Assembly: GCA_001768235.1 (NCBI GenBank)
Contig: MENK01000024.1
Location: 246,919 to 310,918, forward strand
DNA length: 64,000 bases
Origin: Bacteroidetes bacterium GWB2_32_14
GTDB lineage: Bacteria > Bacteroidota > Bacteroidia > Bacteroidales > UBA12077
Reading direction: 5' to 3'
The notes below the pieces were generated by a model. That model ran no database searches, was not told the origin of the DNA, and saw only the letters and a list, made by a program, of their open reading frames with translations. Positions 3,001 through 28,185 of this stretch are shown piece after piece (the stretch's first letter is position 1; every line of letters begins with the position of its first letter). The position numbers were made by a program, and so were the translations under genes.

Positions 3001-3341
3001 AATTTAAAGAAAGCGGGAAAAATATTTTGCCACTAAAATACATTTTAAAAACAGGTACAATGGTTATATTTTGGGAAAATTATCCTGAGGAAATATGGGA
3101 TATAGATAAAAATCAATTATACAAAAGATTATTTAAAGTTACTCAGTTTGAATCAGATGGAAGGATTCAAGCAAGGTTTCATCAGATAGCGAAACCAGAT
3201 AATGAACTTACTAAAGTTTCTGAACTCGATTTTAGTAATATAGCAGAAAAGATTAGACTTAGTAAAGGAAATCTAAATATGCTAGTAAATGGGTATGATT
3301 TTAAAATAAATGTACTTGGACATATAGAAAAACTATCTTAG
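1..3341 (+). CDS. cas9: Cas9 endonuclease, type II-C-like, 5' partial (continues off the left edge)
   Basis: Reading frame is open from nt 3 (LKGEKIRKRHISREEHYLNEFKKIC...) into the listed ORF; AIFYQRPLKSQK..GKC motif; RuvC-II INVEMSRELN; HNH EIEHTIPRSLSYDNSLENKTLC; RuvC-III HHCIDAITIAC; followed directly by cas1-cas2 and an array. The listed start at 102 is an internal TTG. Confidence 0.97.
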   Translation, partial: LKGEKIRKRHISREEHYLNEFKKICEVQNFNKELAEKLERAIFYQRPLKSQKGLVGKCTLQNNKHRCPISRPEFEEFRMWQFINSIKYKNSDGKFDFLNKEQRENIIPAFVSNKNATFEFSKIEKILNKGVHIYQFNYKSNHTIGSNQTMINFMDVFDIDRKLTNAWLLCVNKIYELYTAKTKKDGSLKSKSEVITDVWHVLFTFDNEENLKEFARNKLLLDESSAQKFSKINLKQDYSQLSLKAINKILPYLQEGLIYSYAVFIANIENVIGKSIWNIKENQQIIRTSIKKIIDNHKTELDINTITNSLINDFKVNYNNAHKEYKVDDIDLKNIREKIIKYYGNKTWNCLPEDEKLYVKEKVEKLYEKQLKSGKRGIFIEKIRLDDRIENFLKDNFDSSELNLKKLYHPSDVSVYKSVKITDLGLRLLGSPMIPSIKNPMAMRAMHQLRKLINHLIIEGVIDDSTIINVEMSRELNDANMRKAIERYQRQRATENEEFKTKIKELYKKECGTDFEPNNDDIMKYRLWEEQNHKCLYTGKSIGICDFIGSNPAFEIEHTIPRSLSYDNSLENKTLCEKEFNQQVKKNRIPFELSNYKEIISRINNWEIKAEELFKQIQKVKIQSRMAATKEIKDNAIQRKHLLQMEFNYWNGKLSRFTREDVPEGFKNSQLVDIGIITKYARAYLKTVFNNVNTVKGSTVAEFRNIWGLQEYFEKKDRSNHIHHCIDAITIACLTKDKYDFLAHLYHLDEQNNRDAVHRAMIKSKPWENFVQDVKEIENQILVSHYTPDNLPKQSKKILRKRGKIQKNENGDLIYEKGDAVRGSLHKESFYGAIKREIINKKGETEEKVLYVKRKPLEFSDLGFKTISELENIVDDAVRDKVLNAVKDKGLKQALNEPIWMNEEKQIPIKKVRCYTPSVTNPINLKKHRDKSKHEYKQSYHVTNDGNYLMVIYEGKDSQEKVKRDYEIVSNLQAGEYFKQSVHGVLKAQGINNLEGLIPKFKESGKNILPLKYILKTGTMVIFWENYPEEIWDIDKNQLYKRLFKVTQFESDGRIQARFHQIAKPDNELTKVSELDFSNIAEKIRLSKGNLNMLVNGYDFKINVLGHIEKLS

Positions 3342-4235
3342 ATGTTAAAACGAACCCTGTATTTTACCAAGCCCAGCCATCTGTCGGTTAAAAACAAACA
3401 ACTGGTTGTTGAATTAAAAGATGAAAATCAAACCAAGACTGTTCCGGTTGAAGATATTGGTTTTATTGTAATTGAAAATATGCAGATAAGCCTGAGCACA
3501 CCACTAATTGAAGAGTTGATGAATTACAACGTGGCTGTAATTTTTTGCGACAGCAAACATCACCCGCAATCCATGCTTATTAATTTCGAAGGCAACCATC
3601 AGCAAACCGAAGTTTACAGGCAGCAGGTTGCGGCATCGGAACCATTAAAGAAAAATCTTTGGAAACAAACTGTAGAAGCAAAGATTGAGAACCAGGCTAA
3701 AGCATTAATAAAATTGGGTATCAATGCCGATCCCCTGCCGCATTTGGCAAGCCAGGTTAAAAGCGGCGACAGCGATAACCGCGAAGGAATGGCAGCCCGG
3801 TTGTACTGGAAAAAGTTATTTGGCGATGAGTTTAACCGTGAGCGTTTTGGCGACTGGCCGAATGCCCTTTTAAATTACGGGTATATTGTTTTGCGGGCAG
3901 CAACTGCAAGGGCATTAACGGGTTCGGGTTTATTGCCTTCGTTTGGCATTTTTCACAGCAACCGGTTCAATGCTTTTTGCCTTGCCGACGATGTAATGGA
4001 GCCATACCGCCCTTTTATCGATTTGCTGGTATATGATTTGCATGTTAAGTACCCCGGTATGCAGGAATTACAAAAAGAAATAAAAGCAGAAATATTAAAC
4101 GTGTTGTCGGCCGATGTAAAAATGAAAGACAGTACCCGGCCATTGATGATTGCCCTCACGCATACATCGGCATCGCTGGTGGCATGTTACAAGGGCGAAC
4201 GAAAAAATATTGAATTTGCAACAGTTCAGTTATGA
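3342..4235 (+). CDS. cas1: CRISPR-associated integrase Cas1 (type II)
   Basis: 297 aa; MLKRTLYFTKPSHLSVKNKQLVVE...VEDIGFIVIENMQISLSTPLIEELMNYNVAVIFCD; starts immediately after the cas9 stop. Confidence 0.97.
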   Translation: MLKRTLYFTKPSHLSVKNKQLVVELKDENQTKTVPVEDIGFIVIENMQISLSTPLIEELMNYNVAVIFCDSKHHPQSMLINFEGNHQQTEVYRQQVAASEPLKKNLWKQTVEAKIENQAKALIKLGINADPLPHLASQVKSGDSDNREGMAARLYWKKLFGDEFNRERFGDWPNALLNYGYIVLRAATARALTGSGLLPSFGIFHSNRFNAFCLADDVMEPYRPFIDLLVYDLHVKYPGMQELQKEIKAEILNVLSADVKMKDSTRPLMIALTHTSASLVACYKGERKNIEFATVQL

Positions 4236-11386: not shown

Positions 11387-13960
11387 TTATTCTTTATCTT
11401 TATCAGGAAAACTGAGATAGAAGGTTGATCCTGCTCCTAATTCACTTTCGGCCCATACTTTACCACCGTGCCGGTTTATTATTCGTTTAACAATAGCTAA
11501 ACCCACACCTGTTCCTTCGAATTCACTGTCTTTATGTAAACGTTGAAAAACGCCAAATAATTTAGATTCGTACCTTGTATCAAACCCAACGCCGGAATCT
11601 TTTATATAATAAACAACCGATTTATTTTCGAAATAAGCCCCAACTTCAATCGTGCACTTATCGCTATTTCTCGTAAATTTAATCGCGTTACTGATTAAAT
11701 TAATCCAAACCTGTTTAAGAAGTACAATATCACCATAAACTTCGGGTAAGTTATCTGCTGTAAATTTGAATTTTTGTATAGTTTCTGGAGTGCTGATTTC
11801 GTTATATATTTGATGAACAAACTGGTTCATGTTTATTTTGTTTAAATGCATATCGTTACGGCTAATCTTCGATAATTGCAATAAATCCATGATGAGCTGG
11901 TCCATTTTTTTCGTGTTATCGCGGATTACATTCAGGAGCCTTAATCCTTCAGCATCAAGTTTATCGCCATAATCTTCAATGAGGAATCTTGAAAATCCAT
12001 CGATAGCCCTGAGCGGGGCTTTTAGATCGTGTGATACGGTATATGTAAATGCTTCGAGTTCTTTATTTGCTTCTTTCAGTTTTTCGTTAACCTTTTGTAT
12101 TTCGTCTCTCGATTCATTTATATCTTCAAGTAAAAAAAGTAAGGCATCCTGCGATTCTTTCAGTTTTAAAGTTTGTTCATTCAACATGGTTGTTCTTTCC
12201 TGTACAATTTTTTCCAGGTTTTCGTGATGTTGCCGGAGTTCGAACTGAACAGATTTAAGTTCGTCGATATCGGTATGAGTGCCTAACATCCTGGTCGGGT
12301 TACCATCTATATCCCGTTCAACAATTTTACCTGTTGATAAAATCCATTTCCATTTGCCTTGTTTCGTTTTCTGGCGGAATTCAATTTTGTAATCCGAAAT
12401 AATTCCGGCAACATAATCTTTAAAAGCTTGTGCAGTTAGTTCAAGGTCGTCGGGGTGAAGCCTTTCAATCCATGCCTGATTTGTTTCATGGAGCTCTGAC
12501 GGATTGTACCCTAACATAATTGCATATTCATCATTAATTATGGTTTCACCGGTTAGTAAATTTAAATCATATATGCCCTGTTTTGAAGAACTAATAGTTA
12601 ATCTTAACCTTTCTTCGCTATCGCGTAATGCTTTTTCTGCTTTTTTTCGTTCAGTAACATCCATAATTATTGTTAAATAAGCAGGTGTTTCTCCATAATC
12701 AACCTTTTGTAAGTAAACTTCAACCGGGTATTCTGTATTATTTTTTCGACGATGAATGGTTTCGAAATATATTTTGGGTTTTAAATCTTTTTCAACGGAT
12801 TCAATTAAATCTTTGAATTGATTTAATGTATATAAGGGTTTAATATTCAGGGGAGTCATTTCTTTTAACTCGTCTAAGCTATACCCGATATTTTTTATTG
12901 CTCCTTCGTTAACATCAATGAACTTGAAATTTTTTCGCGAGAAAATATATATTTCGTTCAAAGATTCCTGGATGATCTTATTTAAATTTGCTGATTTTTC
13001 TTCTGATTTTAACCTGTCTGTAATATCATGAATAATAGAAAATAAAACTGTTTTATTTTCTATCGTGGTTGAACCACTATAAACCTCTACATTTCTTATG
13101 CTTCCGTCTGACTTGCGGTGTTTGAAAATAAAATACCCTCTTTTATTTTCAAGTGCCAGGTTCATTTCTTTTTGAATTTCGACACTTGAAAGTGTATTGA
13201 TGTCGGTTATATATAATTCATTTTTAAATTGTTGATAAGTATATCCGTAAAATGAAGTTGCAGCGGGATTTGCATCCAATATTTTATTTGTACCGGGGTC
13301 TATAATAAGCATTATGGCATGGCTGCTCATAAACAGGTTTCGAAATCTTTCTTCGCTTTCTTTTAAATCAATTTTATTTTTCCAGTTTTCTTCCCTGTTA
13401 ATTAATAAAAATCCCAGTAAAACAGTACCAATTGGATAGATGGTTAATGCCGGTAGTGCAATATTTTTAAATATTAACCACATTTTATCTCCAGGTAATA
13501 GAAAAATACACAGAAGCATTACTATATGAACCGATATTCCCAGTTTTAAAAATTCGTACAGGCTATTTTCTTTTCTAAAATCAGGCCTTAGTTTTCTCCA
13601 TAATATCCCGATAGCTCCTGACGATATAATTGTTGCCACTCCCATAAAAACACCGTCGCCACCCAGTGTAACCCTGTAAATTCCTGTAATAAGCATTGCA
13701 ATAAGGGTTGGAATTGTTCCAAAAAATAAACCTGAAACCGAAAGCATTATTGTACGGGTATCAAAAACAAGCCCGGGGGCTAAAATCCAAGGGGTGAGCA
13801 TTAAAATGATACCAATAAAACCAATGATAAGGCCGGTTCCTAATTTATAAATTACAGAATCCCGCTTTTTGTATTTCATCCATATATAATCATATAGCAT
13901 ACTAAAAGCAAGTAGTATTGCAATATTCTGAATTAATCCGAGTATTATTGAACTTTTCAT
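11387..13960 (-). CDS. Membrane PAS histidine kinase with LytS-like 5TM N-terminus
   Basis: Multi-TM N-terminus (DTRTIMLSVSGLFFGTIPTLIAMLITGIYRVTLGGDGVFMG), several PAS, YTVSHDLKAPLRAIDGFSRFL, GTGVGLAIVKRI. Confidence 0.93.
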   Translation of the reverse strand: MKSSIILGLIQNIAILLAFSMLYDYIWMKYKKRDSVIYKLGTGLIIGFIGIILMLTPWILAPGLVFDTRTIMLSVSGLFFGTIPTLIAMLITGIYRVTLGGDGVFMGVATIISSGAIGILWRKLRPDFRKENSLYEFLKLGISVHIVMLLCIFLLPGDKMWLIFKNIALPALTIYPIGTVLLGFLLINREENWKNKIDLKESEERFRNLFMSSHAIMLIIDPGTNKILDANPAATSFYGYTYQQFKNELYITDINTLSSVEIQKEMNLALENKRGYFIFKHRKSDGSIRNVEVYSGSTTIENKTVLFSIIHDITDRLKSEEKSANLNKIIQESLNEIYIFSRKNFKFIDVNEGAIKNIGYSLDELKEMTPLNIKPLYTLNQFKDLIESVEKDLKPKIYFETIHRRKNNTEYPVEVYLQKVDYGETPAYLTIIMDVTERKKAEKALRDSEERLRLTISSSKQGIYDLNLLTGETIINDEYAIMLGYNPSELHETNQAWIERLHPDDLELTAQAFKDYVAGIISDYKIEFRQKTKQGKWKWILSTGKIVERDIDGNPTRMLGTHTDIDELKSVQFELRQHHENLEKIVQERTTMLNEQTLKLKESQDALLFLLEDINESRDEIQKVNEKLKEANKELEAFTYTVSHDLKAPLRAIDGFSRFLIEDYGDKLDAEGLRLLNVIRDNTKKMDQLIMDLLQLSKISRNDMHLNKINMNQFVHQIYNEISTPETIQKFKFTADNLPEVYGDIVLLKQVWINLISNAIKFTRNSDKCTIEVGAYFENKSVVYYIKDSGVGFDTRYESKLFGVFQRLHKDSEFEGTGVGLAIVKRIINRHGGKVWAESELGAGSTFYLSFPDKDKE

Positions 13961-14057
13961 GTGTTAATTTTTATTTTTTTATTAAGGTCACATGGAATAT
14001 GCCATGAAATAATCATTTTTGTTTTGTGTGAAATTTATTTCTCATGGCTATTTCATA

Positions 14058-15707
14058 TTAATCGGTTTGTTTTTTATTTGGACTTTCAATGCTTCTCAGC
14101 TTTGTTTTAAGCTCGTTAATCCGATGTTCTCTCCCGAAAAACAGCTTGTTTATTTTTTCTAATTCTTCATTTGCTTTTTTTAATTCGCTTGTTCGTTTTT
14201 CTACTTTTAATTCCAGCTCATTGTAAAGTTTTATGTTTTCAATTGAAATTGCAGCTGTTTCTGCAATTGTTTCGAGTAATTTTATTTCAAAATCAGACGG
14301 GGTGTGTTTTTCTTTCCAGTAATTACCAATTGCACCCAGCGAAGTGTTTGAAAATATAGGTATCATAACCAGACTCTTGACAAATGTTTCTTTATAAATC
14401 TTAATAGGTATCCTGGAATCTTTATAAATGTCTTCAATGATAACTGTTTGCCTGTGTATCATAGCCCAACCGCTTATACACGATGCCATAGGATATTTAT
14501 TCCCTTTCCAGAGTGGTTCTATGGCATCTTCGTCGGCATAGAAACATAAATCATCATCGCGTAAAACAAAAGTTACTCCGTCTGAATTTATTAATTTGCG
14601 CAAGGATTCTTTTATAATTTCCTGAATAGATTCAATGTTCCTGGCTGAAGCGAGTTTTTTATTTACACTGATTAATTGATTTAATTTGTTATTTAAATCT
14701 TTGATTTTTTGCTCGTTCTGTTTATGTTCTGTAAAGTCTCTTATTATCATGCTGGTTCGTAATTCGCTGTTTTTGTCGGTAAAGATGGTTGATGTTATCT
14801 CAACAGGGAATTTAATATTTCCTTTTTTCAGCATGGTAAGTTCAACGGTAGCTGTTCCTTTTTTATCTCTTTCTTCAAGAGCCGGTTTCAATCTTTCGTC
14901 TGTTAAATCGACTATCCCGTTTCTGCCTTGTTGAATTATTTCTTCTTTTGTTTTTCCAAACATCTTGCAGGCTGCCGGGTTTGCGTCATGTATGGCCCCG
15001 TCCGGGGATGTTAATAAGATTGCATCTTTAGATTTTTCGAAAAGAGAATGATACCGGGTTTCACTTTCATGTAATGCCAGTTCTGCATTTTTTCGTTCTG
15101 TAATATCCATAAATGTTCCATAAAACCGAACAGGTTCCCCTTGCTCATTGTATTCGACTATTCCTTTGGTATTACAGTATTTTATATTTTTTTTACCTGT
15201 AATTACCCTGAGATCATAATCCAGTGCCCCGTGGTCTTTAATAATTCTTTCAACTTCGTTACGGTAAATAATTCTGTCTTCAGGGTGTATATATTGGGCA
15301 TTCGAGTTATAATCAGGAGTATAATTGCCAGGATTTAATTCAAGAATACGATAAAGTTCTTCTGACCACCAGATGGAATTATTTATCATATTCCAATCCC
15401 AGCTGCCAATACGGGCAGTTTTTTGAGCGATGTTAAACCTGTTTATTAATTCTGTTTTTAATATTTCTGCTTTCAGGATATTTGCATTGGTTTCAATTAT
15501 TTTTTTATACTGTTCGTGAATCAGATAATAAAGCAATAGTGCAGTAACTACTATAAACATCCATCCTTTGTATGTTTGGTATTTTGTCAGGGCATGTGTA
15601 TCTGATGCAATTTTTTCAAGCAAAATGTCAGAAAAAAGAATCCAGATTATTCCAAACACCAAATAAGTGCCTACTATACTTAACGGTTTAGATATCTTTA
15701 AATTCAT
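14058..15707 (-). CDS. Membrane PAS-PAS-GAF sensor protein with no kinase domain
   Basis: Two-TM N-terminus; PAS repeats; GAF-like segment; no H-box or ATPase; ends KINKLFFGREHRINELKTKLRSIE. Confidence 0.85.
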   Translation of the reverse strand: MNLKISKPLSIVGTYLVFGIIWILFSDILLEKIASDTHALTKYQTYKGWMFIVVTALLLYYLIHEQYKKIIETNANILKAEILKTELINRFNIAQKTARIGSWDWNMINNSIWWSEELYRILELNPGNYTPDYNSNAQYIHPEDRIIYRNEVERIIKDHGALDYDLRVITGKKNIKYCNTKGIVEYNEQGEPVRFYGTFMDITERKNAELALHESETRYHSLFEKSKDAILLTSPDGAIHDANPAACKMFGKTKEEIIQQGRNGIVDLTDERLKPALEERDKKGTATVELTMLKKGNIKFPVEITSTIFTDKNSELRTSMIIRDFTEHKQNEQKIKDLNNKLNQLISVNKKLASARNIESIQEIIKESLRKLINSDGVTFVLRDDDLCFYADEDAIEPLWKGNKYPMASCISGWAMIHRQTVIIEDIYKDSRIPIKIYKETFVKSLVMIPIFSNTSLGAIGNYWKEKHTPSDFEIKLLETIAETAAISIENIKLYNELELKVEKRTSELKKANEELEKINKLFFGREHRINELKTKLRSIESPNKKQTD

Positions 15708-15750
15708 GTTTTTTTAATATTTAATTGCTGTTAAAACAGGGAAACAGGTT

Positions 15751-17505
15751 TTAATTTTTATTTCTGGTATTAACAATGTTTTCAAGTTCTTTTATCTTGT
15801 CTCTTAATTCTTTAATGCGTAATTCGCGGCCAACAAATAAGTTGTTCATACGTTCAAGCTCGTCTATTTTTTGTTTTAATTCACTTGTGCGTTCTTCAAT
15901 TTTTTTTTCAAGTTCAGTATTTAATTTAATTATTTCTTCTTTTGCATTTTTAAGATCGGTTATATCAATAACAAATCCCAAAAACCTTTTATCAGAAAGT
16001 TTAACAGCCGAAACTATCCAATGGTTTTTAGAGCCGTTTTTTCGAATATAAGGTATTTCAGCTATAGCTTCTCCTTCATTTTTCACTCGTTCAAAATGCT
16101 GCAAAGCAACGGGTAATGCGTCTTCAATAAACAGGTTAGGGATGCTCATTGTCAATAATTCGTCTATACCTGAACCAGTTATAATGCTTGCAGCGGGATT
16201 TACTTCTAAAAATTCCCCTTTTTCATTTGCAATAAAAACGCCAAGTGGCGAATGTTGTATGTAGCTCTTGAATTTTTCCTCACTTTCCTTTAATGCATCT
16301 TCGACATGCTTTCGTTCGGTAATGTCGGTGGAAGTACCAATATAACCAATTAAATTTCCTTTATCGTCCACTTGGGCAACAGCTTTACCACTAACCCATG
16401 ATATAGTTCCATCGGGCCGTAAGAATCGATACTCAGCCAAAGAAGATTCGCTTTTTTCTACAGCTTTTTGCCATCCTTCTGTTATTATACCGCGATCATC
16501 GGGATGGACGGCATTAATCCAACCATTCCCTTTTGCTTCATTTAAGCCTATGCCGGAAATTTCGCACCATCGGGGATTAACGTAGGTTGTATTTCCGTTT
16601 GCATCAGTTTTAAAAATTCCAACCGGGGCTTCTTCAGTCAGGGCTTTAAATTGTTGCTCGTTTTTTTGTAAAGCGTCTTGGGCATGCTTGCGCTCCGTGA
16701 TATCTTCTATAATTCCCTCGTAGTAAAGTATGGTGCCTTCCTTGTTGTAAAATGCTTTGGCACTCTCGCGAACATAAATGATCGAGTTGTCCTTTTTTTT
16801 CCATGTCGATTCAAATCCTTTGATAAAACCTTCTTCTTCAATATGTTTTATAAATTCATCCCGTTGATGCTTTGTTTCGTAACCTTGCAATTCAATATTA
16901 ATAGATGCCAGATCATCGAAATTATCATAACCTAACATCAGAACAAGGGTTGGATTGGCAAGTAGAATCTTACCATCTGGGGAAGTACGATAGATTCCTA
17001 AAGTAGAATTTTCGAAAATACTGCGAAACCTTTCTTCATTTTCTTTACAACGTTCCTGTGCTTCTTTGTGCTCTTTTATTAACGCGTTATGTTCAAGTAC
17101 CGACTTAATGGTTGGAGAAAGGCCCTGTATGTGTTTAACCGATTTAATTACATAGTCAGCGGCGCCCATTTTCATTGCCTGGATTGCAATTTCTTCGGAT
17201 CCTGTACCTGTAACAATAATTACCGGTAAATCGGGTTTTACTTTTTTCACAACGCCTAAAACCTGGAGCCCATCGAAACCAAGAATGTTAAAGTCGCTTA
17301 GTACCAGATCGAACTCTTTTTCGGAGAGATACTTTTCAAATTTATCCCTATTATCAGCAGAAATAATTTCATATTCACTGTATTCTTTTTCAAGAACATC
17401 GCGTACTAAGATCCTGTCATGAATGCTATCGTCAACATGAAGAATCCGGATTTTTGTTTTCATAGTTTTTAATTTTATCACAAACCTGCCTATTGGCATG
17501 GACAT
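15751..17505 (-). CDS. REC-PAS(x3) protein with no kinase domain
   Basis: LHVDDSIHDRILV..LVLSDFNILGFDG receiver; three PAS blocks ending DITERKHA/DITERKHV/DITDLKNA; C-term RMNNLFVGRELRIKELRDKIKELE. Confidence 0.88.
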   Translation of the reverse strand: MSMPIGRFVIKLKTMKTKIRILHVDDSIHDRILVRDVLEKEYSEYEIISADNRDKFEKYLSEKEFDLVLSDFNILGFDGLQVLGVVKKVKPDLPVIIVTGTGSEEIAIQAMKMGAADYVIKSVKHIQGLSPTIKSVLEHNALIKEHKEAQERCKENEERFRSIFENSTLGIYRTSPDGKILLANPTLVLMLGYDNFDDLASINIELQGYETKHQRDEFIKHIEEEGFIKGFESTWKKKDNSIIYVRESAKAFYNKEGTILYYEGIIEDITERKHAQDALQKNEQQFKALTEEAPVGIFKTDANGNTTYVNPRWCEISGIGLNEAKGNGWINAVHPDDRGIITEGWQKAVEKSESSLAEYRFLRPDGTISWVSGKAVAQVDDKGNLIGYIGTSTDITERKHVEDALKESEEKFKSYIQHSPLGVFIANEKGEFLEVNPAASIITGSGIDELLTMSIPNLFIEDALPVALQHFERVKNEGEAIAEIPYIRKNGSKNHWIVSAVKLSDKRFLGFVIDITDLKNAKEEIIKLNTELEKKIEERTSELKQKIDELERMNNLFVGRELRIKELRDKIKELENIVNTRNKN

Positions 17506-17520
17506 TAAGAGTATTTAGGT

Positions 17521-17967
17521 TTACTGATTATCGGGTGGATTAATATTTAACGAAAACCAGTAATCATCAATTTTTCTTACAACGTCTGTAAACCCATCAA
17601 AAGAAACAGGTTTTAGTAAGTAACTGTTTGCACCAATGTCGTAACTTAATGCGCGGTCGCCTTCTTCTCTTGATGATGTAAGAATAATTACAGGAATGCG
17701 TTTAAGCTTTTCCGTGCCCTTAACCTGTCTCAAAACTTCGAATCCATCTATTCCAGGCATTTTTAGATCAAGCAGGATTAAAGCCGGCAATGGAAATTCG
17801 TCCCTGTTGGCATATTTGTCATTCCCAAAAAGGTAATCGAGTGCTTCCTGTCCGTTTCGGGCAACATGAATTGTATTTTTGAGCTTAGCTTCCCTGAATG
17901 CATCTAAAGTAAGCACAACATCCATTTGGTTATCTTCTACTAAAAGTATTTGAGCCAGTTTTTCCAT
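17521..17967 (-). CDS. Single-domain response regulator, Rcp1-like
   Basis: ILLVEDNQMDVVLTLDAFREAKL...ALILLDLKMPGIDGFEVL...IILTSSREEGDR...ANSYLLKPVSFDGF. Confidence 0.93.
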   Translation of the reverse strand: MEKLAQILLVEDNQMDVVLTLDAFREAKLKNTIHVARNGQEALDYLFGNDKYANRDEFPLPALILLDLKMPGIDGFEVLRQVKGTEKLKRIPVIILTSSREEGDRALSYDIGANSYLLKPVSFDGFTDVVRKIDDYWFSLNINPPDNQ

Positions 17968-17973
17968 TTTAAA

Positions 17974-19872
17974 TTAAATTTTTGATTTAGGTAAATGTAT
18001 AAAAAATGTAGTCCCTCTATTAACAACCGATTCAACCCAGATTGTACCGTTTAACATACTTACCGACTTACGAACTGTTGCAAGCCCAATCCCGGTTCCG
18101 GGGTATTCATCTTCGCTATGTAGCCGCTGGAAAATGTTAAATATTTTATCCCAATATTCTTCGGGTATTCCTATCCCGTTGTCTGAAATTTTTAATGTAA
18201 TGCCTTTAGCATCCTGATCGTAATTGATTTTTATTTCTAAAGGCTCATCTTTACGTCTATAAATTACTGCGTTATCAATTAAATTGGTGAAAATTTGTTG
18301 TAACAGGCTTTCGTTTCCATAAATTTCGGGTATTTCTTTATCCACAAAAAAAGTTGCTCCCACGTTTTCGAGTTTCTGCTTAAAATCGGAATAAATATTA
18401 TCGATTATTTTATTAAGCGAAACAGGGTAAATATCTATTGATTTGCGGCCAAGCCTTGAATAATCAAGTAAATCATTAATCAGGTGTTCCATTCGGACAC
18501 TTGCCTGAACAATGTAATTCATGTATTGCTGCCCTTCTTCGTTTAACGATGCACGGTGCCTGTTTGTAAGTATTTGCGAAAAGCCAAATATAGCCCTGAG
18601 TGGTGCCCGCAAGTCGTGCGATATGGAATAGCTGAATGATTCCAATTCTTTATTAATAGATGCAAGCTGGGCTGTTCTTTCTGCTACACGTTCTTCAAGG
18701 GTTTGGTTTAATATTTTAATTTCTTCCTGGGCAAGCAACCGCTCATCAAGTTCAACCCGCAATTGCTCGTTTAGCAGGCTTAATTCATACGTACGTTCAT
18801 TTACTTTTTGTTTCAGCTCCCTGTTATGTTTTTGCTTGTTTTTAAAGGCATAGTAAATTGTTAATACCAGAAAAACAACCAGGATTGTAATTATAGCGAG
18901 CAAATACATTAAATTTCTCTGACGATGAATTGTTGAACTCTGTGTTTTTAGTATATCGGTTTGATTTTTAATTTGATATTCCTGACTTTCAATTTCTTCT
19001 CTTTGCCGTAGCAATAACTGGCTGCCTTCGTTTACATCAGCAGAAAGGGCTCTCAATTTTTCTGATTGTTGATCAAATACCCGGCGTTGCTCTGAAATTT
19101 GTTGTATTTTAATACCCAGTTCTTTTTCACGCTGGTTAAGCAACAGAGATTGGTTATCCAGGATTCTTTGTTGTTCCCTGATTTTACGAGTTTGCCTGTT
19201 TAAACTGTCTTTATTAATCTCAACTTCTTTAGTTATAGCAGAAATACTGTTTTTAAGCTGAGCCAGGTTGTTTTCAAGATTTTCCGTGTGTTTTTGCAGG
19301 GTGCGCAGGCTTTGCTGTCCTTCCCTGTATAGTTCGGCAACATCAATTTCAGTTCCTCCAAGCAAAATCATATCCTGCATAATACCAAGATGCTGATTAA
19401 TAATATTCGCCTTGTTTATTTCGAACAAGAGATTGCCCTCTTTGGAATCGATAAAGTTTATCATCACAATTTGTTTGTTCTGGTAATTGTCGCTCACCAT
19501 CAGGATATTTTTTCCTTCAATACGGTCGAACAGGTTTACCAGGTTTTCTTCGTTTCCTTTTGTAGCAAAAACCAATTGCACATTGTTGATATCGCTCAGA
19601 GTTGTGGCTGATGTAACCCGGATAGGTTTATTTCTTATCGTTTTTGTTTTCGAAAGTGTAATTAGTTCATGAAGGATGTTTTCATCCTGGCCAATGATGA
19701 GAAAATGAAACTCGTTTATAGAATCTTCGTTTTGCCACTGAATGTTTTTTGCAAAATTGTAAATATAAGCGCTTATTGCAATTTCGCGACTCACTTGTTG
19801 TGCACTAATACTCCCGTTTAGCCCCCAAAAACAAGCAGTTGATAAATAAACATAAAGAATTAATTTTTTCAT
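17974..19872 (-). CDS. Histidine kinase with periplasmic YfiR-like (DUF4154) domain and coiled coil
   Basis: Signal peptide, SREIAISAYIYNFAKNIQWQNE...FHFLIIGQ...VQLVFATKG...GKNILMVSD YfiR-like; TM; YSISHDLRAPLRAIFGFSQIL; GTGIGLATV. Confidence 0.88.
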   Translation of the reverse strand: MKKLILYVYLSTACFWGLNGSISAQQVSREIAISAYIYNFAKNIQWQNEDSINEFHFLIIGQDENILHELITLSKTKTIRNKPIRVTSATTLSDINNVQLVFATKGNEENLVNLFDRIEGKNILMVSDNYQNKQIVMINFIDSKEGNLLFEINKANIINQHLGIMQDMILLGGTEIDVAELYREGQQSLRTLQKHTENLENNLAQLKNSISAITKEVEINKDSLNRQTRKIREQQRILDNQSLLLNQREKELGIKIQQISEQRRVFDQQSEKLRALSADVNEGSQLLLRQREEIESQEYQIKNQTDILKTQSSTIHRQRNLMYLLAIITILVVFLVLTIYYAFKNKQKHNRELKQKVNERTYELSLLNEQLRVELDERLLAQEEIKILNQTLEERVAERTAQLASINKELESFSYSISHDLRAPLRAIFGFSQILTNRHRASLNEEGQQYMNYIVQASVRMEHLINDLLDYSRLGRKSIDIYPVSLNKIIDNIYSDFKQKLENVGATFFVDKEIPEIYGNESLLQQIFTNLIDNAVIYRRKDEPLEIKINYDQDAKGITLKISDNGIGIPEEYWDKIFNIFQRLHSEDEYPGTGIGLATVRKSVSMLNGTIWVESVVNRGTTFFIHLPKSKI

Positions 19873-19882
19873 CTTTTTTGGT

Positions 19883-21886
19883 TTAATTATTTAGCGTATA
19901 ACCAACAGAAAACATGATGGTACGCTGTGCCTGGCGATACCTGTCGGGGTCTCTGTTTGATGTATGATAGTATTCTGTGTTTAATATGTTTTTTGCTGAA
20001 AGTTGAACTGAAAATCCTTTGTAGTTTACTAATGACAATGCCCCGTGAAATATCAAACAAGGGTCAATATACGTGCTGCTGGTTGAAGATATCATTTTAG
20101 GATTTTCTCTTTTTCCAATGTAATTGGCATGGATGTTAATTTTTATGTATTCGTTAAAAGAATAGGTTATATTCATATTTCCTGTATGTTTACTTATTTC
20201 GGGTACTAAATCACCAGATTCGTTATAACTTTGATTAAATGTATAATTAATTGATGATTTTAGCTTACGGGAAGCATACCTGATATATATTTCTACCCCG
20301 TCGGTTTCAATTTTGCCACCATTAACCCATCTGTAATCGTCGTTAATAACTTCTTTTGTTATGGCATTTTCAAGATTATTTTTATATCCAATGATATCCA
20401 TCGTGTAATTATCGGCTATAGAGAAAGTAAATGCCGTTTCCAGCGATTTCATTTTTTCGGGTAACAATGAAGGATTTCCTAAACCATCGGTGTAATCCCA
20501 GGGTTTTGGGGCCCTGAAAGCTTCAGCATAGGAGAGGCGGAAAAGATGTTTTCTGAAAATATAACTAAGGCCAGCCCTCGGTGTTAATACTTGATCATAA
20601 ATACTGCTTTGATCAAAACGGGTTCCCCCGGAAAGAAAAAGATTTTTAAACAGAGTAAATCGGGGTTCTATAAAAATGCTGGTAAGGTAATTTGTTATCA
20701 TTTCTGGTTTTGTTGGTACGGGGGGAGTTTGTTCTGGCGATTCGCTGTAAGATAAAGATGCTTTTTCTGACAGTTGCCCGTATTCAAATGTTAAACCACC
20801 TGTAACTGAAAAAAACGTATTGGCGGTATAATCCAGTATGTTTTCAAATCCTGTTAAATTGTTTGGCCTGTAATATCCTACCTGGGCGGTATCGAGTACA
20901 AAATACACTGTGTTGTCGAGTACGGTGGTATTTCGGTTGTATAATACTGAAGAATATGTTAGTTTATCGCTTATCTCTTTCGTGTATTTGAGATAATTAT
21001 TTATAAACCGGATATTCCATGAAGTTCCATAATCCCTGTACAGCGTTCCATCAGATTTTTCCAGTGTGGCTGTTGAGGTTTCTTTATAATTGTAGTTGGT
21101 TCCTAAAATGAAATCCTTTGCTTTAATTTTAAAATCAAATGAATAATCGTTTTCAAAGTTATCCATTTCGTCAGTCCAGTTATAATCGCCAGCTCTTCCT
21201 TTTAAATCTGCCTTATCGGTTTTCTTAAACATGCCGGATGTATTGATACCAAACGTGTTTTTATTATTTATATAACTGTAATTAAAATTACTTTCAACGG
21301 TATTAAAATTACCTGCTAAAGCATTGATCTCGATTTTTTTTTCTGTTGGATTTTGAGTAATTATATTTATAATGCCTGATACGGCATTCGTGCCGTAAAC
21401 TACTGATGAGGGCCCGTAAATGACTTCAATACGTTCGATATTTGACAGGTTGTATTGCCCCCCGGCATAGAAACCTCCAGAGTTGAGTTCATTTACCTGT
21501 ACTCCGTCAATAAGCAGCAAGGTGAGGTTATTTTGATTAGGTATTCCTCGTTGAAAAACATAACTGTTAATTCCGTTAATATTTCTAAACTGAAACCCGG
21601 GAAGTTCTGAAAATACTTCTTCTATTGTAAAATATCCATTTTCTCTTATTTGGTCACCCGTAATTACAAAAACTGTTGATGGTACTTCGTTTATATTCTG
21701 AGACACTTTTGAAGCGGAAGTAATTTTAAGTTTTGAAAGTTGAGTTAAGCTTAAATCGTAAATACTGATACTGTCTGTTTGAGAATGGGATACATTTGTG
21801 CCGAGAAAAAAGAAAATCAGTACAATTACAAAACCATACCCGGGCTTTGTAACTAAATTCAAGGATTTCACCGGTGTTTTTTTCAT
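19883..21886 (-). CDS. TonB-dependent outer-membrane receptor
   Basis: Plug domain VFVITGDQIRENGYFTIEEVFSELPG...IERIEVIYGPSSVVYGTNAVSGIINIITQ; C-terminal barrel. Confidence 0.93.
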   Translation of the reverse strand: MKKTPVKSLNLVTKPGYGFVIVLIFFFLGTNVSHSQTDSISIYDLSLTQLSKLKITSASKVSQNINEVPSTVFVITGDQIRENGYFTIEEVFSELPGFQFRNINGINSYVFQRGIPNQNNLTLLLIDGVQVNELNSGGFYAGGQYNLSNIERIEVIYGPSSVVYGTNAVSGIINIITQNPTEKKIEINALAGNFNTVESNFNYSYINNKNTFGINTSGMFKKTDKADLKGRAGDYNWTDEMDNFENDYSFDFKIKAKDFILGTNYNYKETSTATLEKSDGTLYRDYGTSWNIRFINNYLKYTKEISDKLTYSSVLYNRNTTVLDNTVYFVLDTAQVGYYRPNNLTGFENILDYTANTFFSVTGGLTFEYGQLSEKASLSYSESPEQTPPVPTKPEMITNYLTSIFIEPRFTLFKNLFLSGGTRFDQSSIYDQVLTPRAGLSYIFRKHLFRLSYAEAFRAPKPWDYTDGLGNPSLLPEKMKSLETAFTFSIADNYTMDIIGYKNNLENAITKEVINDDYRWVNGGKIETDGVEIYIRYASRKLKSSINYTFNQSYNESGDLVPEISKHTGNMNITYSFNEYIKINIHANYIGKRENPKMISSTSSTYIDPCLIFHGALSLVNYKGFSVQLSAKNILNTEYYHTSNRDPDRYRQAQRTIMFSVGYTLNN

Positions 21887-22046: not shown

Positions 22047-25000
22047 TTAATTTCTATTTTCCAATTCCTTAATCTTTTCCTTGAGTTCTTTTATTCTCAT
22101 TTCGCGTCCAATAAAGGCTTTATTCATACGCTCCAGTTCACTGTTTTTATTTTCAAGATCTCTTGTGCGTTCCTGGATACGTAATTCTAATTCCTCGTTT
22201 AGTTTAATAATTTCCTGTTCAACTTTTTTCCGGTCAGTAATGTCAATTGTAAATCCGGCAAGTATTGGCGAATTATTTTCGTCGCGAATCGGGAATTTTA
22301 TTGTTGTATAGTAACGATCGTTGAAAATCTCATCTACCACGATCATCTTACCTTCTTTAACTATTTTTTTGTCATCTTCAATCATTTTATTGGCGAATTC
22401 TGAAGGAAATAGCTCAAACATATCTTTCCCTAAAAGTTCTGAAAGTGGTTTACCCAACATTTGTTCATAATTTTTACTTAAATGTATCGACTTAATATCA
22501 CGGTCTTTAAAGAAAATATAAATCGGGCTGTTGTCCATTAATGCCTGGAAAAGTAATTCTCTTTCCTTTAATTGAGCTTCAGTTAATTTTAAATTGGTGA
22601 TATCATTATTTACAACAATGGCTCCATCAATATTTCCATCATTATCAAATATGGGGGCCGTGTAATTCAGAACTATTTTTTTTGCACCATCGAAAGCACT
22701 GATTTCCAATAGTTCGTCAGTTATTGTAACTCCCCTGGTAATGGTATGATATAATGCCCAATCGTTGTTTGCTATTTCTTCGCCTGAAGGTAACCTGCGT
22801 GCTTTAAAAACTTTATATTCTTCAATACCAACTTTAGGTTCGGCTCCCCAAATTTTTATTCCTGCCGGATTTCCTTTAATTATTTTGCCATTTTTATCAG
22901 CAAACCATAATCCTATAGGTAAGATATCGAAAATTCTCTGAAGCAGGTTTTCCCGTTTTGTTAATTCTATTTCTGCTTTTTTTCGTTCTGTAACATCCCA
23001 AACAACAGAAATCATTAGTCCTTTTCCTGCTATCGGAATATTTTTAGCGGAAATATAAGAAATCAATTGGCCTTTACGGCTAATGGGTATATCTTCCCAG
23101 AACATCTGATCAGGGTTTCCGCTTGCGCAATCGTCTAATACTCTCTTTTTTATTTTCTCTCTAAATTCAGAATCCTCATATACTGCTTCCCAAAAAACAT
23201 TGTTGTCAACAAGATTTTCTTTACTTGTCCTATAAAATCTGGCGAAATTATCATTCATGTATTCAAATTGTACAGTTGGATCAACCGAATTAACGGCAAC
23301 ACCAATTGGTAAATTATCTAATATAACTTTGATGTATGCTTCACTTTCGCGTAAAGCTATTTCCGAATTTTTTCGTTCGGTAATATCATTAACAAAGCCC
23401 AGGAACCTGTTTTCAGATAATTTTACTGCAGATACTATCCAATATCTTGTTGATTTGTTTTTATGAATAAAAGGAATTTCAATATGGGCTTCACCTTCAT
23501 TTTTAACAATTTCAAAAACGGGTAATATTTCATTAGAAATCAGGTCGGAAATACTCATGGAAAGCAATTCATCTTTGCTATAACCTGTTATATCACAGGC
23601 AGCTTTATTAACATCAATATACTTTCCATTATTATCTGTAATAAAAACTCCAAGAGGTGAATAATCAATATAGCTTTGGAATCTTGCTTCGCTTTGGCGA
23701 AGGTTTTCTTCAGCTTTCATTTTTTCAGTAATATCTATAGACAGGATAAAAACACCTTCAGGTATAGGTTCAATACTTAAATCGAACCATCCAACAGCTC
23801 CATCAGGAAAAACAAATTTGTTTACAATATGGGCCGGAATTTTTTCATCCATGCATTTTTTTATAAGTAAGAAGATATTGGAGCCTTCAATTCCAGGCCA
23901 CGTGTCCATATATTTTTTACCAAGCAGTTCGGATTTGGGCCTGCGATTATGAACTTCTGCAACATTATTGAGATACACGTATTTCCAGTCTAAATCAATA
24001 ATCTGGCATCCTTCGAGCATGTTATCGAGGGTTGAACGTAATCGTTGTTCACTTTCAGTTAAAATTTTCTGACTTAACCGTTCTTCAATTTGATCTCTAA
24101 AAACCAATACAACACCTGTAATATTTCCTTTTACATCCTTTATTGGAGCGCCACTGTCGGCAATAGGTATTCTGTTACCATCTTTTGAAATTAATAAAGT
24201 ATGATTTGCCAATCCCACAATCAATCCTTCTTTTAATACTTTTTTTACAGGATTTTCAACAGGTTCAAGGGTTTCTTCATTTATTATCTTGAAAACTTCT
24301 TCAAGTTTTTTCCCTTTGGCCTCTGTTTCTGTCCAACCCGTAAGTTGTTCAGCTATTGGGTTTAATTGTTTTATTATTCCTTTTTTATCGGTTGTTATAA
24401 CTCCATCGCCAATGCTGTAAAGTGTTGCCCTGTATTCTTCCTGCGACTCGTGCAATTCAATTTCATTGGCCAGTAGTTTTTTATATATGTTTTTTTGCCG
24501 TGAATTGTAGATCCATGTCAGTAATGCACCGTTAAACAAGATAAGAATCAGTACCATTAATGTGATAAATGTGGCTTCTTTGTTTAGTTCTTCAAAAATT
24601 TCTTTTTTATCAACCTTAGATACCATGTACCAATTTGTACCCGGAATTTTATCTAAATGTGTTAAAACATCAATATTTCTGTAATCTCGTCCCTCAAAAA
24701 ATCCTGTCTTACCTGAAGCAGCTTGTACCGCGGGCAAATTTTTATTATTTATTGAAGATTTCATTCTAAGTGCTGTTCCTTTTGCATGCCTTAATTCGTT
24801 TAGGAAAACAATACTGTCGTTTTCGGAGCGAACAATTAATGTCTCAGCAGACTTGCTTGGTGTAGGCCATTTCTGAATAAGTGGATACAAAAAATCTTCC
24901 GGATTAATACTGAAAAAAATTGTGGCAATATATTTATTATTTTCCCCTTTAACGGGAGCCATAATATCGTAATGTACCTTTTCGTGTATAGGGCACATAT

Positions 25001-25463
25001 AAAAATCGCCGACAAAAACATCGTTTAATTTTTTAGTTTTTTGAGCCAAACTTAAAGATGTGGTATCTACAGTATTGAATGTACTATCTAATGTAAATAA
25101 TAATACCCCGCTGCTATTTAGAATAAAAATATTATCATATCCATATAAATCACGGAATCGGGAAAACTCTTTGTATAAGTTCTTTTTAGAATTCAGATTT
25201 CCTGAGACTAAATTTTCAATATCATAAACCATTCGGTAATTATTAGAAATAAATTTTGCATCCGATATTCTTTCGTTTTGCCATAGTAAAAACTCATTAA
25301 TTTTTAAATTGGCTATTGCTTTTAGCTCATTGTACTTTTCATTACGTGTAATGTTTTTGTCGTTATTGTAATATAACGTTCCTGCAATAATAATTATCCC
25401 GCTTATTATAATAATAAGCACAATTATCAGGTACTTATAACTACTTGGTTTAATTGCTTCCAT
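22047..25463 (-). CDS. Membrane multi-PAS sensor (Cache-like periplasmic domain) with no kinase domain
   Basis: Two N-terminal TMs around a periplasmic domain; multiple PAS/PAC (DITERKNSE, DVTERKKAE, DITDRKKVE); C-term RMNKAFIGREMRIKELKEKIKELE. Confidence 0.87.
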   Translation of the reverse strand: MEAIKPSSYKYLIIVLIIIISGIIIIAGTLYYNNDKNITRNEKYNELKAIANLKINEFLLWQNERISDAKFISNNYRMVYDIENLVSGNLNSKKNLYKEFSRFRDLYGYDNIFILNSSGVLLFTLDSTFNTVDTTSLSLAQKTKKLNDVFVGDFYMCPIHEKVHYDIMAPVKGENNKYIATIFFSINPEDFLYPLIQKWPTPSKSAETLIVRSENDSIVFLNELRHAKGTALRMKSSINNKNLPAVQAASGKTGFFEGRDYRNIDVLTHLDKIPGTNWYMVSKVDKKEIFEELNKEATFITLMVLILILFNGALLTWIYNSRQKNIYKKLLANEIELHESQEEYRATLYSIGDGVITTDKKGIIKQLNPIAEQLTGWTETEAKGKKLEEVFKIINEETLEPVENPVKKVLKEGLIVGLANHTLLISKDGNRIPIADSGAPIKDVKGNITGVVLVFRDQIEERLSQKILTESEQRLRSTLDNMLEGCQIIDLDWKYVYLNNVAEVHNRRPKSELLGKKYMDTWPGIEGSNIFLLIKKCMDEKIPAHIVNKFVFPDGAVGWFDLSIEPIPEGVFILSIDITEKMKAEENLRQSEARFQSYIDYSPLGVFITDNNGKYIDVNKAACDITGYSKDELLSMSISDLISNEILPVFEIVKNEGEAHIEIPFIHKNKSTRYWIVSAVKLSENRFLGFVNDITERKNSEIALRESEAYIKVILDNLPIGVAVNSVDPTVQFEYMNDNFARFYRTSKENLVDNNVFWEAVYEDSEFREKIKKRVLDDCASGNPDQMFWEDIPISRKGQLISYISAKNIPIAGKGLMISVVWDVTERKKAEIELTKRENLLQRIFDILPIGLWFADKNGKIIKGNPAGIKIWGAEPKVGIEEYKVFKARRLPSGEEIANNDWALYHTITRGVTITDELLEISAFDGAKKIVLNYTAPIFDNDGNIDGAIVVNNDITNLKLTEAQLKERELLFQALMDNSPIYIFFKDRDIKSIHLSKNYEQMLGKPLSELLGKDMFELFPSEFANKMIEDDKKIVKEGKMIVVDEIFNDRYYTTIKFPIRDENNSPILAGFTIDITDRKKVEQEIIKLNEELELRIQERTRDLENKNSELERMNKAFIGREMRIKELKEKIKELENRN

Positions 25464-25493: not shown

Positions 25494-25925
25494 TTATGAT
25501 TGATTTGCCAGTTTAGAGAAAAATGGCTGGTATAGCCAACTATAAAAAGGTTTTACCTGCTCGAAAGAATCTCTTGATAATTTATTTCTCAGAATATCCA
25601 GTACCTTATTTAACATAGTTGGCCAATATGCAAAATTGAATCCGTGATTCGAGTACACCCTGAAAACCCATAACACGGTTTCCACAAGTATTTCCGGGTT
25701 ATAATCAATAAACATGGAATTCATAAACCGCAACAGGTTCCGGTGGTTATCAAGCATCATGGTTTCGTTGTTCTCGCCAATTAGCAAAACCAAATCGGGT
25801 CGCGAAAGCATTGTTTCGTTCAACTCGGAAAGCGTAATATCCATGTTGTTGAAGAATTCTATCTGAGCTTCTTCAGATGGTTGTTTTAGCTTTTCCGCGA
25901 TAGAAATTAATTCACTCTTGGTCAT
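25494..25925 (-). CDS. Predicted all-alpha hypothetical protein, 143 aa
   Basis: ORF within the same-strand cluster; helical pattern; no family recognised with confidence. Confidence 0.75.
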   Translation of the reverse strand: MTKSELISIAEKLKQPSEEAQIEFFNNMDITLSELNETMLSRPDLVLLIGENNETMMLDNHRNLLRFMNSMFIDYNPEILVETVLWVFRVYSNHGFNFAYWPTMLNKVLDILRNKLSRDSFEQVKPFYSWLYQPFFSKLANQS

Positions 25926-26028: not shown

Positions 26029-27138
26029 TTAATTGTATTCCTGCTTTATTGGCAGGGAGAAATAAAATACAGATCCTTTTCCCAATACACTTTCTGCCCA
26101 TACCCGCCCGTTATGTTCATTAATTATTTTTTTTACAATAGCCAGTCCAAGCCCGGTACTTGATTCTCCGGCGGTTGTTTCAGAATCTGTTTTACTAAAA
26201 AATTGAAATAATTTTGATAAATCATATTTCTTAATGCCAACACCTTCATCACTTACAGAAACAATTATTTCGTCATTATGTTTTTTTACAATTACTTTAA
26301 TTGTTGTATTATTTTTTGAATACTTTATTGCATTTGAGATATAATTATCGAGGACCTGGTCAATTTTTGCAGAGTCGATATTAAGAATTAATAACTCTTC
26401 AGGCTTAAAGAGGTTTATCTGAATTGATTTTTGATCTGCAAAGAAGCGGTTTCTATCAATGTTTTTTTTAATTAATTGAAAAACATCTGTATTTGCTCGC
26501 TCTAAACGTAAATTACCTGATTCAATAACAGATACATCTAATAAATCGTTAATTAATTTAAGTATAGAATCGCCTGATGATTTTATTATTTCGAGAAACT
26601 GCTTTTGTTTGTCCTGATTCATATTACTATTGGCAAGCAATGAGCAATACCCTGAAATCAGGGATGCAGGATTTCGAATATCGTGTGCTGCAATACCTAA
26701 AAACTCGTTTTTTAAATCGTTTAATTTTTTTAACTCAGTATTTTTCTTGATTAATTCGCGCGAAAGGTTATTCAGTTCGTTACTTAACTGAACAAATGAG
26801 ACATTCATTTTCTCCAGCTCGATCACGTTATGTTCGCCTATTGCAATGTATCCATCCCGGGTTTCAAAAAAAGAGAACTGTAATGTTATTGGAATGCCGG
26901 TAAGTGTATTTATTGAAAGTAATTGTCCCGAACCGGATTTTATATCGTTGATGTTAAATTTACCATTAAAATCGACAACAAGCTGATGAAACTGTCCGTT
27001 AAGTTGTTTTTTGCCAGCTATTTGTTCTATATATGTATTAAACGTAATAATCTTACCATCTTTATCAAGGTAAATAATTACAATAGAAGCCCGATCGTTT
27101 AAATAAGATTCAATAATCTTTGTTTTTTGATTATTCAT
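26029..27138 (-). CDS. PAS sensor histidine kinase
   Basis: FLGIAAHDIRNPASLISGYCSLL; DNYISNAIKYS; DEGVGI; STGLGLAIVKKI. Confidence 0.92.
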   Translation of the reverse strand: MNNQKTKIIESYLNDRASIVIIYLDKDGKIITFNTYIEQIAGKKQLNGQFHQLVVDFNGKFNINDIKSGSGQLLSINTLTGIPITLQFSFFETRDGYIAIGEHNVIELEKMNVSFVQLSNELNNLSRELIKKNTELKKLNDLKNEFLGIAAHDIRNPASLISGYCSLLANSNMNQDKQKQFLEIIKSSGDSILKLINDLLDVSVIESGNLRLERANTDVFQLIKKNIDRNRFFADQKSIQINLFKPEELLILNIDSAKIDQVLDNYISNAIKYSKNNTTIKVIVKKHNDEIIVSVSDEGVGIKKYDLSKLFQFFSKTDSETTAGESSTGLGLAIVKKIINEHNGRVWAESVLGKGSVFYFSLPIKQEYN

Positions 27139-27159
27139 AGTTTTATATACATATAGAAC

Positions 27160-27789
27160 TTAGGATATCATTTTTTCAAGAGCATAGAGAGAATCTATAT
27201 AATTTACATGTTTTAAACGGCTTATTGCTTGTTCGCCCCCATGTTTAAAGGCTTGTCCGCCAACAATTAATTCAATATTTTTAAAATTATCCTGTAAAAT
27301 ATTGATTGCCTGAACCAGGTAATTGATATTAAAATAAATACTTAACGATAATCCAACCATATCCGGTTTTTTTTCATCAACGAATTTAATTAAATCGTTA
27401 ACAGGTGTATTTGAACCTATAAAATAGGAATTCCACTGATTTAATTCGAAAATATCGGCAACCATTTTCGCGCCAACCTGGTGCAGTTCGTTTGCAACGC
27501 AGGCAATTATAACATTTTTTCCATTTTTAGATTCGGAAAAGATTTGCGGGTAAAGAATTAACATTAACCGTTCGGTAATTGATGTAGCTAAATGTTCTGT
27601 TGCAACAGAAATTTTATTATTTTCCCATAATTTCCCAATTTCATACAATGATTCCTGGAAATAATCAACATATATTGTTTTAACGTCTGCGCCTTGTTCA
27701 ATCTTATTTTGTATAAACAATGTACAAAAATCTTTATCTCCATTAATCAAGGCATTCAAATAATTAGTATAAGCCTTATTTTCATGCAT
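27160..27789 (-). CDS. Stand-alone cobalamin-binding (CarH/B12-binding-2-like) sensor protein
   Basis: LWENNKISVATEHLATS matches Wx9EH; ACVANELHQVGAKMVADIFELNQW matches the ExHxxG B12-binding motif; no MerR DNA-binding domain. Confidence 0.82.
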   Translation of the reverse strand: MHENKAYTNYLNALINGDKDFCTLFIQNKIEQGADVKTIYVDYFQESLYEIGKLWENNKISVATEHLATSITERLMLILYPQIFSESKNGKNVIIACVANELHQVGAKMVADIFELNQWNSYFIGSNTPVNDLIKFVDEKKPDMVGLSLSIYFNINYLVQAINILQDNFKNIELIVGGQAFKHGGEQAISRLKHVNYIDSLYALEKMIS

Positions 27790-27937: not shown

Positions 27938-28185
27938 TCACTATTGTCCTGTAAAACTTTTAACAAGTATTTACTGTCGTGCTTACAGCACTTTTGATTT
28001 TTGTAAGTTGCTGATTATTACCATACTTTTGCCCCGATGGGGCTTTTGTTGAGTTCCAAAGGAACGAAAGTATGGTAAAACAATGCCAACCAAAAAGGAA
28101 AGCCCTGTAAGGGCGAAAGAAACATGGATGTCTTATTGTTTCAAGATATCATTATATATCTATATTTTTTATCGGACAACAGTGA
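27938..28185. mobile_element. Inner MITE-like element nested in the outer one, with 12-bp TIRs and 7-bp TSD
   Basis: TCACTATTGTCC ... GGACAACAGTGA (11/12), flanked on both sides by TTTCTAA (27931-27937 and 28186-28192). Confidence 0.72.

Follow-up and report, generated by a model that had tools for sequence, protein, structure and literature searches.

Three genes follow one another on the minus strand of the window (the whole stretch of DNA that was analysed, 64,000 nt). The first (27160..27789, minus strand) encodes a putative B12 sensor protein of 209 residues, in which a four-helix cap is joined to a Rossmann B12-binding fold without a DNA-binding domain. The second starts 21 nt downstream and encodes a cytosolic histidine kinase of 369 residues (26029..27138, minus strand). 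The third encodes a phycobiliprotein-like globin of 143 residues, here named X143 (25494..25925, minus strand). A preliminary description, made from the sequence alone, had paired the B12 protein with a PAS kinase lying 21 nt after it; the open reading frame coordinates agree, and both members of the pair are present, but the description overlooked the globin gene as the third part.

Two Pfam domains were matched above the cut-off in the 209-residue protein, B12-binding_2 (PF02607, residues 9-79, 3.4e-14) and B12-binding (PF02310, residues 92-187, 3.2e-15). They were its only Pfam matches, which bears out the reported absence of a MerR domain. The two motifs for which the gene was first singled out were found in the open reading frame: W-x9-EH (W55, E65 and H66; LWENNKISVATEH, 27592..27627, minus strand), which in CarH and in photocobilins lies at the upper face, in the adenosyl pocket, and ExHxxG (ELHQVG, i.e., E101, H103 and G106; 27472..27489, minus strand). 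In the alignment to 8j2w, H103 coincides with His108, the lower axial cobalt ligand of SasPcob. Residues G52, W55, E65, H66, E101, H103, G106, G125 and P129 were invariant among 15 homologues, and G-x2-W-x9-EH was found in all 45 B12-domain sequences that we compared. Hence, these signature motifs are not due to chance. The equivalents of CarH Trp131, Glu141, His142 and His177 are W55, E65, H66 and H103, respectively.

The label "CarH-like" fits the fold and the motifs of the protein, but its closest solved relatives are photocobilins. The best matches among PDB sequences were SasPcob (8j2w/8j2x, 3e-18), a cobalamin-binding protein (8jbs, 5e-12) and AbPcob (8j2y, 2e-10), with CarH (5c8a, about 3e-5) far behind 8j2w. 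The protein of 8jbs is probably the CtMerR of the signature-motif study (PMC11796333). The light-response signature defined with SignatureFinder consists of GxxW, EH, GxxH and GxxxP (PMC11796333); GxxW (G52, W55), EH and GxxxP (G125, P129) are present in the 209-residue protein, and GxxH has Asn100 in place of Gly. The residue directly after Trp55 is Glu56, as first noted, and not the His of Thermus CarH, from which it was argued that the light chemistry might differ. This concern is weakened by the photocobilins, which are photoactive without bis-His ligation and have a water/hydroxide-ligated light state (PMC10979010), so that the missing His is no argument against light chemistry. SasPcob has Gln at this position in the sequence alignment, and His was found there in none of the 45 compared sequences, including the MerR-CarH encoded in the same genome.

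The only Pfam matches of the kinase were HisKA and HATPase_c. Its N-terminal 115 residues adopt a PAS fold in the AlphaFold model (pLDDT 80), the best PDB match of which in Foldseek was the PAS domain 3olo (prob 1.00). The designation "PAS kinase" therefore holds, with the PAS domain at about residues 1-112, although Pfam shows none. The residues of the H-, N-, D- and G-boxes were invariant in the alignment and all boxes are intact, including the phospho-acceptor His152 in HisKA (26683-26685, minus strand). No response regulator adjoins the kinase gene in the window; in the relative L035 a receiver gene lies 3' of the kinase and is the first candidate for a phosphotransfer partner.

The third gene had no match in Pfam, PF00502 included. 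Searches of PDB sequences with phmmer and hmmsearch gave chance matches alone, which were discarded. The structural model of X143 is confident (pLDDT 93.7), and Foldseek ranked allophycocyanin chains first (prob 1.00, TM 0.66, E only 0.04-0.3), followed by other globins. By its predicted structure, X143 is thus a phycobiliprotein-like globin with allophycocyanin as its nearest relative. A scan of genome contigs recovered nine relatives, and the X143 profile matched photoglobin domains with a P-value of 2.6e-6 (probability 89%). The invariant W86 aligns with Trp296 of SasPcob in the profile-based alignment, and N60 aligns with the bilin-anchoring Asp270, the residue being Asn in 13 out of 13 X143 sequences. 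The pocket has a conserved N60-H61-x-N63 of non-bilin type. The bilin-attachment motif CxRD is missing along with its Cys, with M-L-D-N at that place. Judged from sequence, X143 appears to be a divergent globin subfamily, homologous to the photoglobin-type domains that are fused to kinase-linked B12 proteins.

The gene after X143 encodes a multi-PAS protein of 1138 residues (22047..25463, minus strand) with a weak dCache match and without a kinase domain in Pfam. It is probably a co-transcribed neighbour of the module. A gene of this type is kept beside X143 in L041 and L042, and this pairing persists where the B12 gene and the kinase gene themselves are broken. In L043, L045 and L094, too, the product encoded after X143 is a large multi-PAS protein. 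No output domain was recognisable in the 1138-residue protein.

The linkage of the B12 protein to a kinase recurs in other genomes. We surveyed 396 Bacteroidota genomes, of which 41 (counting the window genome) matched the B12 profile strongly. A kinase was adjacent or one gene away in 18 of the 29 Bacteroidota loci inspected; these consisted of 13 fusions, three loci with the order B12-X143-kinase, one with B12-kinase-X143, and one with B12-kinase. The remaining 11 homologous loci had unrelated neighbours and no adjacent kinase. The kinase follows the B12 gene directly, in the same order, in L029/L043, L030 and L032-L036, and is also adjacent in L044 and L045. The complete order of the window (B12 protein, kinase, X143) was found in L043 and L044 (Bacteroidales/Bacteroidia) and in L045 (Deltaproteobacteria). 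The preliminary description had proposed a B12-dependent sensor signalling through the kinase, to be abandoned if the linkage was not conserved. The search for B12-binding-2/kinase pairs showed that they recur widely, in the 18 Bacteroidota loci and in further relatives, which supports the proposal.

The globin is also tied to the B12 protein. Besides the window genome, X143 was found in four of the 396 Bacteroidota genomes, each time beside a B12 gene. In Desulfonatronospira, Syntrophobacteraceae, Clostridia and Spirochaetales (L046-L049) it forms the N-terminal part of a fusion with the B12 domain, and in three of these loci (L046, L047 and L049) the next gene encodes a GGDEF diguanylate cyclase. 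Such fusions argue strongly for a joint function of the globin and the B12 protein. The kinase-linked B12 proteins of L032-L036 carry an N-terminal globin of the phycobilisome type (PF00502, 4.6e-9; allophycocyanin by profile, 4.6e-9). In the maximum-likelihood tree of the B12 domain the globin fusions stand apart with 99% support, and the window protein and other split forms sit in a larger group. Kin to the split forms are the kinase-free CarH-type B12 proteins of another Bacteroidota class (L069, L071, L075, L078-L084). They are apparently conserved beside genes of PAP2 type and CBM/alpha-amylase genes, not beside photolyases, and their context is therefore silent on light.

The genome itself encodes other functions relevant to the module. 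It has a PduO-type adenosyltransferase (PF01923) and, outside the window, a photolyase of the 8-HDF type (L090, contig C1, 1763-3070, minus strand) divergently transcribed from a separate MerR-CarH-like regulator of 293 residues with W-x9-EH and EYHELG (3294-4175, plus strand). The same arrangement is repeated in G016 (L091); near the regulator of L090 there is a gene that by eye resembles an ECF sigma factor. Photolyases were found in 8 of 10 relatives with the B12 family vs. 18 of 49 (Fisher p 0.016, kinship ignored). The genome also carries a COX1 gene, so that strictly anaerobic life cannot simply be assumed for the organism. We found no heme oxygenase of the PF01126 family in the window genome or in 58 relatives. 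The family was absent from 39 of the 40 Bacteroidota with the B12 family, and present in 44 of the 396 Bacteroidota.

These traits can be compared with known systems. Photocobilins consist of a CarH-type B12 domain fused to a phycobiliprotein-like globin able to carry biliverdin; they respond to green light by breakage of the Co-C bond and to red light through the bilin (PMC10979010). Our module shares with SasPcob and AbDPcob the B12 domain (W-x9-EH, ExH), the globin, an associated output enzyme, and the lack of His after Trp. Unlike in photocobilins, its B12 protein and globin are encoded by separate genes (the same globin being fused in L046-L049), a histidine kinase serves as the predicted output, Asn replaces the bilin-anchoring Asp of the globin, and no heme oxygenase was found. 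Stand-alone globin genes beside genes of B12-binding proteins are also known from the BBAG-2/B12 pairs of Myxococcales, but Myxococcales with BBAG-2 encode a heme oxygenase (PMC10151467), and our unit includes a kinase in a genome where no heme oxygenase was found. CarH/LitR of Thermus and Myxococcus have the same B12-binding fold and adenosyl-pocket motif, whereas the window protein lacks the MerR domain, has a kinase as its predicted output, and carries Glu56 in place of His132, so that a bis-His light state is not expected; the genome moreover has its separate MerR-CarH beside the photolyase. Schneider et al. 2022 reportedly described a "light-sensing bundle" of photoglobin and B12, predicted to be tied to prokaryotic signal transduction proteins. 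Photoglobin and B12 domains go together with such proteins in both cases, but X143 is divergent, is unmatched by PF00502, and is part of a three-gene arrangement. Since the module has neither the fusion and bilin Asp of photocobilins nor the MerR domain of CarH, we class it as a variant rather than a member of these groups. It is probably a recently described kind of B12 switch, here in split form with a kinase output.

On balance, we favour the interpretation that the three genes form a split photocobilin-like sensor with two-component output. In the 209-residue protein, adenosylcobalamin would be bound base-off/His-on with His103 as ligand, and Trp55 together with Glu65-His66 would pack against the adenosyl group at a head-to-tail dimer interface. 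X143 would dock on the B12 protein and, like the fused globin of photocobilins, cap the corrin edge. Light, by analogy green light, would cleave the Co-C bond, the adenosyl group would depart, and the dimer would loosen. The change would affect how active the partner PAS histidine kinase is, and this kinase would pass its phosphate to a receiver encoded elsewhere. That the ligand is adenosylcobalamin, that light is the signal, that the kinase is contacted physically and which way the response goes are all inferred. Light acting through adenosylcobalamin is the likeliest input, with somewhat better than even chances, given the intact adenosyl pocket and the adenosyltransferase, photolyase and separate MerR-CarH of the genome. 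X143 may work without biliverdin, because it has Asn at the place of the bilin-anchoring Asp and no heme oxygenase of the canonical PF01126 family was found in the genome or in nearly all other Bacteroidota with the B12 family, which thus seem unable to make the bilin. It is conceivable, at a little under even chances, that X143 is a conserved bilin-free partner, either capping the corrin or with another ligand bound, and that in bacteria without bilin synthesis B12 alone or with some unknown metabolite controls the histidine kinase or the diguanylate cyclase.

An unlikely alternative, though the best of those that we weighed, is a sensor of cobalamin status or of redox/oxygen, in which the level of adenosylcobalamin or the oxidation state of cobalt would be passed to the kinase without light, the globin being a cap or a binder of another ligand. 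It would suit the X143-B12 fusions, found in MAGs of typically anaerobic groups, as well as the lack of heme oxygenase and the conserved non-bilin pocket. Yet, the Trp and Glu-His residues of the adenosyl-photolysis pocket are all kept, the same genome encodes the photolyase and MerR-CarH, and the loss of the module in relatives with groundwater-type names suits a light sensor. This loss is seen within the genus. In G003 the B12 and kinase genes are reduced to scraps and the X143 and PAS genes are intact; G019 has an internal deletion, so that B12 residues 1-45 run on in frame into kinase residues 88 onward; and in G009 X143 is shortened and the kinase broken (decaying copies at L092, L038 and L093). 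The copy in the window is intact, with every kinase box and, apart from N100 for Gly in GxxH, every B12 motif. The records of G003 and G019 are named in the manner of groundwater metagenomes. At least two relatives with the module or its remnants (L041 and L042) have names of this kind, and as light is unlikely in such a habitat they count against a light input, although the B12 gene is broken in both.

Somewhat less likely still is a full photocobilin, in which X143 would carry biliverdin, either scavenged or made by an unrecognised enzyme, and would extend the response to red as in SasPcob. The allophycocyanin-like fold, the invariant W86 and the biliverdin bound by the stand-alone BBAG-2 globins beside Myxococcales B12 proteins (PMC10151467) are consistent with it. 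The Asn in place of Asp270 in all X143 sequences and the missing Cys of CxRD argue against it, the more so as AbPcob, with His at the position equivalent to Asp270, has lowered biliverdin binding (PMC10979010). The lack of PF01126 in the genome, in the 58 relatives and in nearly all B12-family Bacteroidota casts doubt on the bilin side of a photocobilin model. That the 209-residue protein is instead a corrinoid methyl-carrier (MtbC/MtgC/MtaC-like) of a methyltransferase system, as weak NCBIfam corrinoid-protein matches far under the cut-off might suggest (e.g., MtgC, 2.2e-11), is scarcely credible and was rejected on context: no methyltransferase or activator gene was present among the adjacent genes examined, the neighbours are consistently sensor genes across phyla, the W-x9-EH and ExH signature is present, and the nearest PDB relatives are photoreceptors.

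A split photocobilin-like sensor would connect light perception by B12 with two-component signalling, using parts that are separate and exchangeable, and natural split versions could be useful for optogenetics. The module also raises the question of why relatives of bilin-binding globins persist beside B12 sensors without a canonical heme oxygenase, which bears perhaps on whether the partnership of globin and B12 predates the use of bilins.

The Rfam scan of the 64,000-nt window revealed no cobalamin riboswitch, its sole match being a tRNA, and the promoter scan of the module region did no better than shuffled sequences. Short G+C-rich hairpins (GCCCTTACAGGGC, GCCCCGATGGGGC and GTGCTTACAGCAC), terminator-like on both strands, cluster at 27975-28120, within the gap of 600 nt that precedes the B12 gene. 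Further signalling genes lie on the same strand as the module at 11387-21886, i.e., a TonB receptor, a YfiR-domain histidine kinase, a single receiver, a receiver-PAS protein, a PAS-GAF protein and a 5TM-PAS kinase. At the other end, a very long open reading frame of at least 2957 codons (55128-63998) runs past the end of the window.
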